48,471 bases of DNA from Acidobacteriaceae bacterium (GTDB taxonomy: Bacteria; Acidobacteriota; Terriglobia; Terriglobales; Acidobacteriaceae), in contig JANWJB010000077.1 in the NCBI GenBank assembly GCA_025449575.1, forward strand, positions 1-48,471. Direction: 5' to 3'. Numbering within the stretch: the stretch's first letter is position 1; every line of letters begins with the position of its first letter. The position numbers and the translations under genes are program-made. The notes below the pieces were generated by a model. The model ran no database searches and was not told the origin of the DNA. It saw only the letters and a list, made by a program, of their open reading frames with translations. Shown one piece after another: positions 10,206-42,893 of the stretch.

Positions 10206-11801
10206 ATGTGGAACTCATTGCGATCGACATGCGTCTTGACCGCCGGCTTGGTTCTTGCTTCGAGCGCCAGCCCCCTTCTCGCCCAGTTCGGCAACGAAAC
10301 ACAAAAAAAGCTGCCTCCCCCCGCCGTCAACTGGACCTCTGAGCAGGATCATCAGAACATGATGGATCAGCTTGGCATCAAGACCATTCGTCCAGGCCCC
10401 AGCGGCTACCCAAACCTTCCCAACCCCGCCAACTATGACGAGTCGAAAGCCAATCCCTACCCCAATCTTCCCGATGCCCTCACCATGGACGACGGCAAAA
10501 AAGTGAACACCGCCGCCATGTGGTGGAAGCAGCGCCGCCCCCAGCTTGTCGACGATCTGTCGCGCTCCATGTATGGTTTCGTTCCCAAGGACGTCCCTAA
10601 GGTTACCTGGACAGTCGAGGTCGTCGATCATGAGCGCGTTGGTTTTATACCGGTAATCGCCAAGCGCCTGGTGGGACATGTCGATAACTCCCGCTATCCG
10701 TTGATCGATGTGAATATCCAGATGGTTGTCGTAACGCCGGAGAATGCCAAAGGGCCCGTTCCTCTATTGATGATGTTTGGGGCGGCGACTCTTCCCGCCC
10801 CTGCGCAGCCCAATCCGGATCAGCTCCAGCAGATCAACGACGCCCTGCGCGCGCTATTGGAGAAAAGCGATCCGGAGATCAAAGGCATTCTCGACCAGTA
10901 TCCGGCTTATGAGCCGGCGCAACCGGCGGCCAGAGCCAACCCCTTCGGCGGACCGGCGCCGGCTCCCGGGCAGCCTCGCCCTGATCCTCCCGCCATCCAG
11001 CAGCTGATCGCCGCCGGCTGGGGATTCGCGCGCATCAATCCGTCCAGCATCCAGGCCGATAATGGCGCCGGGCTCACGCGCGGCATCATCGGACTCGTCA
11101 ATAAGGGGCAGGCCCGCAAGCCTGATGATTGGGGCGCGCTCCGTGCCTGGGCATGGGGAGCCGGCCGCGGTCTGGATTATCTTGAGACCGATCCCGCCGT
11201 CGACGCCAAGCACGTGGGCATCGAAGGTGTCTCCCGCTACGGCAAGGCGGCGCTCGTGACCCTGGCGTTCGATCAGCGCTTCTATATGGGACTGATCGGC
11301 TCCTCTGGAGAAGGCGGAGCCAAGCCTAGCCGCCGGAATTTCGGCGAGTCTCTCGATAACCTCACGAATACCGGCGAGTATCACTGGATGGTGGGTAACT
11401 TCATCAAGTATGGAGCTGTACAAGCCAGTTTCGGTCCCAAGAACCCAGGCGATCTCCCTGTGGACTCCAACGACCTCATCGCCCTGTGTGCTCCGCGCCT
11501 CACCTTTATCAGCTACGGCGTTCCATCCCTGGGGGATGCCAATTGGCTTGACCAAAGAGGGAGCTGGATGGCGACCGTGGCCGCGCAACCGGTTTGGACC
11601 CTTCTGGGGGCCAAGGATTTAGGCGTTACCGGCGATTACCACACCGTGCCCATGCCTCCAGTCAACCAAGGATTGCTGGATGGGCAGATTGCGTGGCGGC
11701 AAGCCCATCAGGGGCACACCGACGCCCAGAACGTGAAGCCGTTCATTGCCTGGGCGGATAAGTTCATGGGTCGTCCCGCTCCCGTTGCTCGCGGGCGCTA
11801 A
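10206..11801 (+). CDS. Glucuronoyl methylesterase-like carbohydrate esterase (CE15 family)
   Basis: Secreted alpha/beta hydrolase with CE15 nucleophile motif GVSRYGKAA, GLDYLETDPAVDAKHVGIEGVSRYGK and C-terminal RQAHQGHTDA. Proline-rich insertion of about 70 aa after VPLLMMFG. Confidence 0.82.
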   Translation: MWNSLRSTCVLTAGLVLASSASPLLAQFGNETQKKLPPPAVNWTSEQDHQNMMDQLGIKTIRPGPSGYPNLPNPANYDESKANPYPNLPDALTMDDGKKVNTAAMWWKQRRPQLVDDLSRSMYGFVPKDVPKVTWTVEVVDHERVGFIPVIAKRLVGHVDNSRYPLIDVNIQMVVVTPENAKGPVPLLMMFGAATLPAPAQPNPDQLQQINDALRALLEKSDPEIKGILDQYPAYEPAQPAARANPFGGPAPAPGQPRPDPPAIQQLIAAGWGFARINPSSIQADNGAGLTRGIIGLVNKGQARKPDDWGALRAWAWGAGRGLDYLETDPAVDAKHVGIEGVSRYGKAALVTLAFDQRFYMGLIGSSGEGGAKPSRRNFGESLDNLTNTGEYHWMVGNFIKYGAVQASFGPKNPGDLPVDSNDLIALCAPRLTFISYGVPSLGDANWLDQRGSWMATVAAQPVWTLLGAKDLGVTGDYHTVPMPPVNQGLLDGQIAWRQAHQGHTDAQNVKPFIAWADKFMGRPAPVARGR

Positions 11802-11951
11802 GCGGATTCACGATAGGTGTATCCCGAGGCAGAGGAACCATACGCGGCTTTTCCGTCAAGAAAAGCCGCACCTCTCGAATCATGGTGGGGCATAGCAATC
11901 GTGAATCCGCACTAAGCGGATTCACGATAGGTGTATCCCGAGGCAGAGGAA
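11801..11951. repeat. MITE-like palindromic repeat element, one full unit (11801-11910) plus a 37-bp direct repeat of its left end (11915-11951)
   Basis: GCGGATTCACGAT (11802-11814) inverted with ATCGTGAATCCGC (11898-11910). Internal hairpin GCGGCTTTT/AAAAGCCGC (11844-11869). The 37 bp AGCGGATTCACGATAGGTGTATCCCGAGGCAGAGGAA is exactly repeated at 11801 and 11915. Confidence 0.85.
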
Positions 11952-13010: not shown

Positions 13011-13080
13011 CATCTCTTCCACGTCTTTTCCAACAGCCGGAGAGAGCGGAGCGGAGCGAATGTCGATTCCGCGCTATGGT

Positions 13081-13184
13081 GGATTTCCTACAGGGGTATA
13101 TCGGGGGAGCTGCAGCAAGCGCGGCTTTTCATCGAGAAAAGCCGCGCCTCGTCGGGTTCGTGGGTGCACAGCTACAGGAAATCT
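13081..13184. repeat. Diverged copy of the MITE-like element
   Basis: Termini GGATTTCCT/AGGAAATCT. Internal hairpin GCGGCTTTT-CATCGAG-AAAAGCCGC. Flanks align with the 11801 and 25483 copies (e.g. GGGGTATATCGGGGGAG and TGGGTGCACAGCTA). Confidence 0.6.
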
Positions 13185-13187
13185 GAC

Positions 13188-13712
13188 TTAGATGCTGTGC
13201 CTCTCGGCGATTTTCTTCACTGCGATCGTCATCACCGCCGCGCCCAGCGCCTTCACCAGTGTCGGATGTTGCGCGTAGATCGAGCTCATGCGGTCGACGA
13301 TCGACGGATCGGCATCGTGCGCATGTTGCGCCAGTGCGGCTACATCGGCGGCCGGAACGCTCGCAGCCTGCTGCGGGGTCACTGCCGTTTGGCCCGCGTT
13401 GAGCAGCGACGCCAACGGTGAATTGGGGTTATTTTGGGTGAATTTTGAGAGGACCTCCGGTCCCACCGAGGAGAGTAAAGTGCTTAACATTCCGGCCTGT
13501 TGCTCGCCGTTGGCGCTGGAAAATAGCCGGCTTGCCGCCTGCGAAAAGGAGCCGGCCTGCCCGGAGCGCAAGGCATCGGCCAGCCCGCTGGCCAGCGATG
13601 AACTGGGAACCGATTGCGCAACCTGATCGAAGTGCTGTTCCACGTTCGCTGGGTTCGCGCTGTTGCCGGTGTACTGCTTGAGTAGATCGCCAATTCCTGA
13701 AAGAAAGCTCAT
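13188..13712 (-). CDS. Conserved hypothetical protein (Ala/Ser-rich, about 174 aa)
   Basis: Intact ORF with sensible start (MSFLSGIGDLLKQYTG...) and composition. No family confidently recognised. Confidence 0.65.
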   Translation of the reverse strand: MSFLSGIGDLLKQYTGNSANPANVEQHFDQVAQSVPSSSLASGLADALRSGQAGSFSQAASRLFSSANGEQQAGMLSTLLSSVGPEVLSKFTQNNPNSPLASLLNAGQTAVTPQQAASVPAADVAALAQHAHDADPSIVDRMSSIYAQHPTLVKALGAAVMTIAVKKIAERHSI

Positions 13713-14156
13713 AAGATCCTTCCGCTTCGTTCGTTGCCTGTGGAGGATCCACCCTTCGAGCGCCCGGGTCCCGGCGTTGGAACCCGGAGTTGTGGAATGG
13801 GGGTGAGTCCCTGTTATGCCATCACTGCTTTTCGTGCTGGCTGCGTTTGTTTTGGGTTGATTCCGCCTTCATCTTTCCCGGCACGGATGGCTTTGCCAAA
13901 CGGCAGCCCTCCGTTTGCGGGTGCCGGCTTCCGTCATCCACCGGCCTGTCCCGGGGGTAATCGGACGTGTGAGATACATCTTTTCCTGTTTCGGTTGGCC
14001 CGCTCGGATATATTTGCTTTCGCGTTCGCAATTCGCTTTCCTTTTATGCCGGGGGAGCGCATGCCTGCGCAGCGCTCTGCGCGCAGGCTCGCGTCCCCTT
14101 CATTTGCCTATGAGAAAATCCAACGGAGGTGAGAGGGTCGAGGTGAGAGGGTCCAA

Positions 14157-15390: not shown

Positions 15391-15424
15391 CCGGGCTATG
15401 CCAGGCGGCTATCGTGAATCCGCT
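15391..15424. repeat. Partial MITE-like repeat end
   Basis: CTATCGTGAATCCGCT (15409-15424) equals the element terminus AGCGGATTCACGATAG in reverse, and abuts the minus-strand stop codon of the response regulator gene. Confidence 0.6.
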
Positions 15425-15427
15425 CTA

Positions 15428-16096
15428 TCAGCGCGAGCCCGCCAGCCAGTCCTCCGAGTGCTTTTCCAATGCGATTCGCACCAGTTGGCTGCGCGTCCTG
15501 ACTCCGGTCTTGTCAAAGAGCTGCTGCAACACGGCCTTCACCGAACTCTCCGAGATCGCCAGTTGAGCTCCGATCTCCTTATTCGTAAGGCCTTCAAACA
15601 CTCCTTTGAGCACAGCCCGCTCGCGCGCGGACAAGTCGCGCGGAGCCGTCCTGACGTCGCTGACCGCGGATGCTGCGGCGATCATGGATCGGGCAATGCG
15701 GCTGTCCAGCCACATCTCCCCTTGCATCACCTTTCGAATCGCCTCGACCAGCCGGCCCGGAGGGCTGTGCTTGAGGAAGATTCCCGACGACCCGCTATGC
15801 AGCGCCCGAAAGATTGCGGCGTCGTTCATCCCCGCCGTCACCAGCAGCACGCGTCCGGAGAAACCCTGCTCCGGCGCCTGCACCAGAAACCGCGTGCCGT
15901 CTTCTTCGCCCAGATCGTAGTCCAGCAGCGCGAGATCGAAGGTCGCCAGGTCGGGGACGGCAAGCGCCGCCGCCGCCGAAGCGCAGCTTCCCGCGATCTG
16001 AAAGTCAGGCTCGGTTTGCAGCAGCCGGCCTAGGCTCTCCCGGAACAGGCTGTGATCGTCTATCAGCAGAATCCGTATCGGGTTGGTATTGCTCAT
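15428..16096 (-). CDS. NarL/FixJ-type LuxR response regulator
   Basis: MSNTNPIRILLIDDHSLFRESLGRLLQ receiver N-terminus; DYDLGEEDG; LuxR HTH LSARERAVLKGVFEGLTNKEIGAQLAISESSVKAVLQQLFDKTGVRTRSQLV. Confidence 0.93.
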   Translation of the reverse strand: MSNTNPIRILLIDDHSLFRESLGRLLQTEPDFQIAGSCASAAAALAVPDLATFDLALLDYDLGEEDGTRFLVQAPEQGFSGRVLLVTAGMNDAAIFRALHSGSSGIFLKHSPPGRLVEAIRKVMQGEMWLDSRIARSMIAAASAVSDVRTAPRDLSARERAVLKGVFEGLTNKEIGAQLAISESSVKAVLQQLFDKTGVRTRSQLVRIALEKHSEDWLAGSR

Positions 16097-24974: not shown

Positions 24975-25151
24975 GGTGCGCAGGTGTTTCCATGGCCGGC
25001 GAATCGGTCTTCCGGCTTCCCTCCGTCCCGCGCCCCAGAATGCCTCCTGCGACTTTTTGCTTGCCCCAGCATCTCTATCAGGTGATCCGAATGCTATTCT
25101 CAGCAAGCTGGCCTGGCGAAGTCCAGGAGAGGCATTTCGGTGGAGGAGGGT

Positions 25152-25481
25152 ATGTTGGCTGAGTCGGTGTCTGAGGTAAGTGATGCAACCTTCGAGCAGG
25201 AGGTGCTGCGTTCCGAGCAACCTGTCCTGGTGGATTTCTGGGCAGCATGGTGCGGACCGTGCCGCGCGCTGGCTCCCATCGTGGCCGAAGTGGCTAACCA
25301 GTACAACGGCAAACTGAAGGTGTTCAAGATGGACGTGGATAGCAATTCCGCGACCCCGATGCGGTATGGAATACGCGGTATCCCCGCACTGCTGCTCTTC
25401 AAGGACGGCAAGGTGGCTGAACAGATCGTTGGCTATGTGCCGAAGGACACGATCGATAAGAGCATCAGCCGCCACGTCTAG
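25152..25481 (+). CDS. trxA: Thioredoxin
   Basis: VDFWAAWCGPCRALAPIV; YGIRGIPALLLFKDGK. Confidence 0.96.
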   Translation: MLAESVSEVSDATFEQEVLRSEQPVLVDFWAAWCGPCRALAPIVAEVANQYNGKLKVFKMDVDSNSATPMRYGIRGIPALLLFKDGKVAEQIVGYVPKDTIDKSISRHV

Positions 25482-25482
25482 A

Positions 25483-25590
25483 GCGGATTCACAATTGCTA
25501 TGCCCCACCACGGTTGCGGAAATGCGGCTTTTTTAACGGGAAACCCGCATATGGTGCATTTGCTTCCGGGTAGACCTATCGTGTATCCGC
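25483..25590. repeat. MITE-like element, full-length copy in inverted orientation relative to the 11801 copy
   Basis: GCGGATTCACAATTGCTATGCCCCACCA...TGCGGCTTTT...ATATGGTGCATTTGCTTCCGGGTAGACCTATCGTGTATCCGC aligns end to end with the reverse complement of 11802-11910. Confidence 0.82.
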
Positions 25591-29723: not shown

Positions 29724-29753
29724 TGTCCCGGGGCACACCTATCTGAATCCGCT
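29724..29753. repeat. Partial MITE-like repeat end
   Basis: Minus strand AGCGGATTCA(--)GATAGGTGTGCCCCGGGACAG aligns with AGCGGATTCACGATAGGTGTATCCCGAGGCAG, directly after the xylB stop TAG. Confidence 0.6.
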
Positions 29754-31319
29754 CTATGGCGCGAAGATCTGCCGCAAGGCTGGATAGAGGCGGCGATAGT
29801 TCGCGTAAGCCGCCTGCATCGTAGTCACGTTCTGCGGATCAGGCGCGATCCGCTGTGCCACATGGACGACGGCGTCGCAGGCCTGTTCGACCGTCGGCCA
29901 CAAGCCCGCGCCTACGCCGGCCAGCAGCGCCGCGCCATAAGCCGCCCCTTCTTCGGCGGCTACCGTCTCCACCGCTTGTCCATAGACTTCGGCTTGAATT
30001 TGGCGCCACACGGAAGAACGCGCACCGCCTCCGCCTAGCCGTATTTCACGAACCGGAATCCCCAACTCGCCGAAGATGGTGAGCGAGTCCTTCAGGCTGA
30101 AGGCGACACCTTCCAGAATCGCGCGGATCACGTGTCCGCGGCCATGGCTCGCGGCCAAACCTACCAGGGCGCCGCGCGCATTCGGGTCCAGGTAAGGGGT
30201 GCGCTCGCCCATGAGATACGGCGCCCAGAGAACGCCCTCCGAGCCGGCGGGGATGCGCGAGGCCTCCGCGGCAAGCGCGTCATAAGGATCTCCCGCCGGC
30301 ATGGGTTCCTTGCCCGTGCCGAAGTTGTCGCGGAACCAGCGCAATGAGAGCCCCGCTGCCTGGGTCACGCCCATCACGTGCCAGCGCCCGGGGATGGCGT
30401 GGCAGAAGGTATGGAGACGGCCGCGCGGGTCGGTGAAGGGCGCGTCGGTTGCGGCAAAGACCACCCCCGAGGTGCCGATGGTCGCGCTGACGTCGCCGGG
30501 ACGCGCGATTCCCATGCCCAGCGCGCCGGCAGCCTGGTCCCCCGCGCCGGCCACGATCGGCGTGCCCGCCTTCAGCCCTGTCTCCTTCGCGGCGGCTTCG
30601 CTGATCCGGCCGGCGATCTCCGGCGACTCGAAGAGTTGCGGCAGGCAGTCCCGGTTCAGGCCGGTGGCCTCCAGCATGGCATACGACCACTGGCGGTGCT
30701 GCACGTCGAGCAACAGCGTGCCCGAAGCATCGGCCACGTCGATGGCTCGCAGCCCGCTGAGCCGAAAACGAACGTAGTCCTTGGGCAAAACGAAGCTGTG
30801 GAACTTCCGCCAGATCTCCGGCTCGTGCTTGCGCACCCAAAGCAGCTTGGTGAGGGTGAAGTTGGTGAGCGCGGGGTTGGCGGTCAACTCGACCAGGCGC
30901 TCGGGACCGATGGTCGAATTCAGGTCGCGGCACTCCTCGGCGGTGCGCTGGTCGGCCCAGATCAACGCCGGGCGCAGCACCCGGTTCTCTTTGTCCAGCA
31001 GCACCGCGCCGTGCATCTGGCCGGTGAGCCCGATGCAGGCGATCTCCTCCGGAGCAATGGCCGACTCGCGCAGCAAGCGGGCGATGGCGGCGCTCGAAGC
31101 CTTCCACCAGTCGTGCGGATCCTGTTCCGCCCATCCGGCGTGTGGAGAGCGAAAGGGCTCATGTTCGTGGACCGCCGAGGCGACCACCGCGCCCGATTCA
31201 TCGATCAATAAAGCCCGCGAGCCCCCCGTGCCGACGTCGATTCCAAGCAAGTGAATGGCGCTACCCTCCCGATCGTGATGCAATTGCTTTTTTTTTGAGC
31301 GCGGACGAGCACCGCGCAT
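29754..31319 (-). CDS. xylB: Xylulokinase (FGGY family)
   Basis: LLGIDVGTGGSRALLIDESG; GLTGQMHGAVLLD; LGGGGARSSVWRQIQAEVYGQAVETV. N-terminus uncertain. Confidence 0.9.
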   Translation of the reverse strand: MRGARPRSKKKQLHHDREGSAIHLLGIDVGTGGSRALLIDESGAVVASAVHEHEPFRSPHAGWAEQDPHDWWKASSAAIARLLRESAIAPEEIACIGLTGQMHGAVLLDKENRVLRPALIWADQRTAEECRDLNSTIGPERLVELTANPALTNFTLTKLLWVRKHEPEIWRKFHSFVLPKDYVRFRLSGLRAIDVADASGTLLLDVQHRQWSYAMLEATGLNRDCLPQLFESPEIAGRISEAAAKETGLKAGTPIVAGAGDQAAGALGMGIARPGDVSATIGTSGVVFAATDAPFTDPRGRLHTFCHAIPGRWHVMGVTQAAGLSLRWFRDNFGTGKEPMPAGDPYDALAAEASRIPAGSEGVLWAPYLMGERTPYLDPNARGALVGLAASHGRGHVIRAILEGVAFSLKDSLTIFGELGIPVREIRLGGGGARSSVWRQIQAEVYGQAVETVAAEEGAAYGAALLAGVGAGLWPTVEQACDAVVHVAQRIAPDPQNVTTMQAAYANYRRLYPALRQIFAP

Positions 31320-42747: not shown

Positions 42748-42822
42748 CGCGTCCAGTGTACCGGAGCGGGCACGAAAGAGCAGAAGCGGCGCGGCCATAG
42801 CCGGCGGCCGGGAAGCCGGATA

Positions 42823-42893
42823 GGATTTTCAATCAAGAAAAATCCGCCCTTCCAGGTGTTGCGCCGGGTGCACCTCGTGCCGATTCTGCTCTA
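42823..42893. repeat. Possible degenerate MITE-like element
   Basis: Hairpin GGATTTT-CAATCAAGA-AAAATCC resembles the element core loop (CCGTCAAG). The right end CGATTCTGCTCTAG resembles GAATCCGCTCTAT. Confidence 0.3.

Follow-up and report, generated by a model that had tools for sequence, protein, structure and literature searches.

The window, the whole 48,471-nucleotide stretch of DNA analyzed here, carries a MITE-like mobile-type DNA element of about 110 bp, which is present in about 80 copies in the host genome. The original prediction had described a family of small, non-coding, dispersed elements with terminal inverted repeats (TIRs), and such a family was found: none of the copies detected in the host genome lies inside a gene, most of their ends adjoin TA or YTAR, and they match no Rfam family. 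Two properties of the family were absent from that prediction: it splits into many subfamilies whose TIRs differ although they share a conserved core, and copies are inserted on stop codons.

The predicted unit of about 109 bp with TIRs and a central hairpin was confirmed; its TIRs are 13 nt long and its core hairpin has 10 bp (Table 1). Its fold lies far beyond chance expectation, with z=-8.0 on one strand and -5.6 on the other. The second full copy is inverted as predicted, since covariance model R1 scores best on opposite strands for the two copies. A diverged copy had been placed at 13081-13184; it is genuine, its span is corrected to 13079-13187, and its TIR is of the GGATTTCCTACAG type, a sequence unlike the TIR at 11802-11910 and yet still an inverted repeat. 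Both predicted end fragments are genuine element ends. The element bases of the partial copy at 11916-11951 are identical to those of the adjacent full copy, so that it is probably a local duplication. All three full copies and the fragment at 29724 are placed at stop codons. A weak R1 match at 42780-42889 (21.5 bits, E=0.003) is perhaps a decayed copy. As a separate observation, a perfect tandem duplication of 14 bp (GAGGTGAGAGGGTC) is located at 14126-14153, just upstream of a gene start.

Table 1. Element copies and associated features in the window. For full elements, the strand is the best-scoring orientation of model R1.
Feature	Position	Strand	Evidence or remark
Full-length element, main subfamily	11802..11910	-	R1, 108.6 bits, E=4e-27
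Outer TIR, left arm, GCGGATTCACGAT	11802..11814	+	Sequence; inverted repeat I1
Outer TIR, right arm, ATCGTGAATCCGC	11898..11910	+	Sequence; inverted repeat I1
Inner core hairpin, GCGGCTTTTC-CGTCAA-GAAAAGCCGC	11844..11869		Exact core-pattern match
Left flank CTAA	11798..11801	+	Includes the TAA stop codon (11799-11801) of the upstream gene 10236-11801
Right flank CTAA	11912..11915	+	Direct repeat of the left flank CTAA at 11798..11801
Partial tandem copy of the element's left part	11916..11951	+	Repeat D3, 98% identical
Full element, second subfamily, other TIR but same core	13079..13187	-	R1, 74.5 bits, E=9e-18
Core hairpin of the 13079-13187 copy	13121..13145		Core-pattern scan
Stop codon TAA of gene 13188-13712, abutting the 13079-13187 element	13188..13190	-	Gene calling
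End fragment, TIR 15409-15424	15391..15424		Repeat / TIR-pattern search
Full element, main subfamily, orientation opposite to 11802-11910	25483..25590	+	R1, 60.3 bits, E=7e-14
Stop codon TAG of thioredoxin gene 25140-25481, abutting the 25483-25590 element	25479..25481	+	Gene calling
End fragment	29724..29753		Adjoining TA is part of the stop codon (29754-29756) of carbohydrate kinase gene 29754-31283 on the minus strand

Copies were counted in the host genome (G000), an Acidobacteria MAG of 233 contigs and 3.03 Mb that is 83% complete and represents a soil bacterium. A profile search of fetched loci yielded at least 78 non-redundant elements, of which 62 are close to full length, so the family is not restricted to a few copies. 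Among the 40 of 121 candidates that were scored in a DNA search, nearly all were full or near-full, with 84-100% identity. The TIR pattern matched 118 times (59+59), compared with 0 matches of a reversed-pattern control. Both orientations occur, and highly similar copies are found beside unrelated genes. In genome G061, a single contig of 6.4 Mb, 335 TIR matches were obtained versus 0 in the control.

Most element ends lie directly next to TA, mainly in the form CTAG or TTAG. TA or YTAR is present on both sides in 35 of the 62 near-full copies of the host genome and on one side or both in 59. At positions -1 to -3, ahead of TA, the two flanks of host copies agree more often than shuffled pairs do (p about 0.002-0.005), whereas in G061 this agreement is not above chance. 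The host flanks had at first suggested a clean 4-bp duplication of YTAR; the result from G061 weakens that reading, and we therefore limit the claim to TA/YTAR at the ends. One 400-kb comparison of genomes G045 and G053 (97.2% identical), in which few copies were found, showed no polymorphic empty site of the element. A clean empty site of another kind was seen between these genomes: a 134-bp palindromic insertion (ACTGTCCTGCCGG...) lies inside a hairpin in G053 (L376, around position 15782) and is absent in G045 (L396). This insertion is a small repeat different from the element family described here.

According to a codon-usage gene caller, 0 of the 78 host elements lie inside genes. The flanking TAG or TAA is the stop codon of the adjacent gene in 41 of these 78 copies, over three times the 15.5% expected from other non-coding YTAR sites (p=4e-14), and 37 copies lie away from stop codons. 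A measure that does not depend on the gene caller gave the same picture: the flanking TAR was the exact end of a reading frame of 150 or more codons on 41 of 99 sides, compared with 8 of 198 for the other two frames. The bias was repeated in G061 (12/23, p=7e-6) and in G002 (9/31, p=0.001) and was absent in the small sample from G036 (1/9). Copies are located between convergent genes in 31 of 78 cases and between two gene starts in four. Donation of stop codons by the TAG end of the element through random gene truncation is ruled out, since only in the TAR frame do long reading frames end. Also against truncation, the alignment between a solved thioredoxin and the thioredoxin next to the copy at 25483 extends to the final residue of the latter, showing that its native stop and C-terminus are in place. 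The excess at stop codons could reflect either targeting or the survival of harmless insertions.

Since the copy at 13079-13187 carries a different TIR around the same core, the search was widened to a superfamily. Within the host order, 8 of 150 genomes contain the core GCGGCTTTTC-N-GAAAAGCCGC, some of them many times. Among the matches listed when the GTDB genome collection was scanned, most acidobacterial cores have an outer inverted repeat, usually with a score of 10-19; cores in other phyla, again among the matches listed, have no outer repeat above a score of 8. Subfamily TIRs among these listed matches comprise GCGGATTTCCTAT, AGCATTTTCACTTCT, GAACCTGTCTCATAAT, TTGAGTCTCGCAGA, AGAGCAAATCCAGC, GCCCGAGTTCGTCAC and others. 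The elements are 104-124 bp long, and the outer TIRs measure 13-19 nt in every subfamily. In an alignment of 16 subfamily sequences, all 13 of 13 outer pairs show changes on both sides, with 63 double-change cells at true partners versus at most 18 for slid partners. Of 396 genomes from the phylum, at least 17 contain members detected by model R1, and each of these genomes belongs to the host's family; these counts are minima, as nine candidates per genome were scored with strict filters. In the genomes sampled, the superfamily appears to be confined to one acidobacterial order.

R1 members also include further cores (GCCGTTTTT, GGCGTTTTC, GTGGATTTTTC), and in G002 elements with the same TIR have a different core (L278, L269, L281). 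Thus, what stays constant throughout the superfamily is the architecture, and both ends and core vary. Several variants were noted in addition: versions of about 140 bp whose core-hairpin loop contains additional palindromic sequence (L266, L267 and L274 in G002), an element copy interrupted by a further insertion of about 260 bp (L325 in G061, 1500-1870), and two elements arranged head to tail with one CTAG common to both (L148 in palsa_350, 1-220). It is conceivable, though we would regard it as doubtful, that the subfamilies exchanged TIRs and perhaps helper transposases too, that the core was kept since mobilization needs it, and that stop codons provided gene-safe insertion sites.

Divergence within one genome was determined from 48 aligned copies of the host. 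It amounts to 4.8% in the outer stem, 4.4% in the core and 11.6% in unpaired positions, the stems thus being about 2.5 times less diverged. There were 0 compensatory double changes versus 77 one-sided broken cells; given this decay without compensation, pairing is not visibly maintained in place. We read the pattern as constraint that would act on copies still moving, followed by decay in place, and selection may act on the stem sequence in place. The core hairpin is as constrained as the TIRs, which suggests that it has a part in mobilization, either in protein binding or in a folded single-strand intermediate. An inner hairpin under such strong constraint is not expected in a plain DDE MITE and counts against one.

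The best explanation, to which we assign a probability of roughly 0.7, is a MITE-like element of the kind represented by RUP, Correia and ERIC, non-autonomous and mobilized in trans through TA target sites. The TIRs would be recognized by a DDE transposase acting in trans, which would most likely belong to the TA-targeting IS630 type, and insertion would occur at TA within YTAR. TAG and TAA stop codons would offer this TA, and since its duplication would regenerate the stop and leave the gene unharmed, insertions there would survive. Once inserted, copies would mostly decay neutrally, and mRNA ends may be affected where these hairpins lie immediately 3' of genes.

Searches for a helper used PF01609, PF13358 and PF01797. 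No IS with the same TIRs was found in the fragmented MAGs G000 and G002, and in the stretches read from G000, G002 and G061 a search by TIR pattern revealed no pair at the spacing of an IS that included a transposase. Two IS630-type remnants are present in the host genome, and the only end recognized among them, TAGTGTCCTGAGTC, does not match. Because these searches gave no IS sharing its ends, we call the element MITE-like and not a proven MITE. The best lead to a helper is a match of 14 of 17 positions between the TIR of the subfamily in CRAIB (G037) and the TIR of an IS630-family IS in the congeneric genome G036 (0 of 20,000 shuffles; 126 comparisons). The PF01609/PF13358 search also revealed several ISs of relatives with CTAG at their ends and other TIRs (IS1182, IS1380, IS701, IS1634, IS630). 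Resident ISs of these five families in the host order (L130-L136, L142) have their ends next to CTAG.

The elements might instead be REPIN-like and moved as a folded single strand by a RAYT/TIRYT (Y1 HUH), in which case TA would be borne by the element and not duplicated. The distal base after TA at stop-codon copies fits TA duplication and element-borne TA alike, and an inner hairpin conserved like the ends would suit the Y1 route. Y1 genes (PF01797) are present in 11 of 13 carrier genomes, including G000, and a 199-aa Y1 gene in G002 (contig C395, L358, 1049-1912) lies between two full elements in inverted orientation (50.4 and 45.2 bits). TIR-flanked tyrosine transposases, one distinct group of them from Acidobacteria, are described in one report (PMC3733652). 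However, L358 was the only bracketed locus among the 30 Y1 loci examined; the other 29 have different palindromes, for example of the GGGTGCCCC type or CCTGGGGC...GCCCCAGG, or none detected. At L358 the element itself appears to be inserted in the REP palindrome of the Y1 gene (GAACCCG-TA...TA-CGGGTCC). The Y1 gene of the host genome carries different repeats, and no Y1 gene was found in two carriers, G025 (98% complete) and G036 (73% complete), where a helper may have been lost. A RAYT as general helper is thus mostly rejected; mobilization by this route is unlikely, and less likely than a DDE/IS630 helper. The original proposal that a transposase or a RAYT acts in trans consequently stays conditional, as the searches of G000 and G002 gave no IS with matching ends and the Y1 link is confined to one of 30 loci. 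GTAG/CGTC-tagged REP units of 20-40 nt in inverted pairs are not the form seen here, where the ends are mostly of the TAGAGC type and surround a single central hairpin. RIME elements of Rhizobium, which by description are intergenic palindromes with TAGAGC-like ends, provide a lead. A separate observation concerns a Y1 gene between long inverted repeats, which has opposite orientations relative to the left flank in the congeneric genomes G061 (L347) and G066 (L365), as if inverted by recombination.

A structured RNA in 3'UTRs, selected at gene ends as an mRNA stabilizer, processing site or regulator, would account for the strong fold on both strands, for the adjacency to stop codons and for the rarity of copies between two gene starts. 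We consider it improbable, because base changes within the host genome are mostly one-sided breaks with no compensation, highly similar copies lie in both orientations beside unrelated genes, and nearly half of the copies are off stop codons. Furthermore, an Rfam RNA family was rejected, since no family scored above the gathering threshold for the element and only a tRNA was detected in the window. A bidirectional intrinsic terminator or terminator-like repeat, to which hairpins directly after stops and often between convergent genes might point, is rejected as very improbable, since the GC stem is followed by no T-tract on either side and the A/T tracts lie inside the stem, confirming that the hairpin is not in terminator order as predicted.

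By kind, the MITE-like element resembles several known systems. RUP of pneumococcus is a 107-bp intergenic element with TIRs, a TA target and about 100 copies, thought to be mobilized in trans by the IS630-family IS IS630-Spn1 (PMC2229807; PMC3049150). Size, TIRs, intergenic site, TA target and copy number are alike; RUP differs in phylum and sequence, no TIR-different subfamilies with one inner hairpin are reported for it, and a counterpart of IS630-Spn1 was not found for the present element in G000 and G002. Correia/NEMIS and ERIC are palindromic MITEs of about 100-155 bp with TA termini, whose transcripts fold into long stem-loops (PMC2229807). They are likened here in size, palindromic structure and TA termini, by description and not by sequence; they belong to other phyla, whereas the present family has many TIR subfamilies around one core and its placement at stop codons. 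REPIN/REP-RAYT systems and TIRYT 'TIRtrons' (PMC3733652) are likewise palindromic, dispersed and of high copy number, and one Y1 gene is bracketed here. They differ in that most Y1 genes here have other palindromes, some carriers have no Y1 gene, and the element has no GTAG tag and one central hairpin inside long TIRs. The TIRYT genes of Acidobacteria, with a TIR family reported for Koribacter versatilis, are the closest published context for the Y1 route (PMC3733652).

A search of the openly searchable full-text literature found no description of the family. Apparently, this family of Acidobacteria elements, by kind with RUP, Correia/NEMIS and ERIC, is undescribed so far. For Acidobacteria, a phylum dominant in soil, it is a large addition to the small mobile elements. 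It is unusual among MITEs in two respects: a single constrained hairpin is enclosed by terminal repeats that are unrelated between subfamilies, and placement at stop codons is strong. These two features open direct tests of helper-transposase switching and of the tolerance of gene-adjacent insertion.
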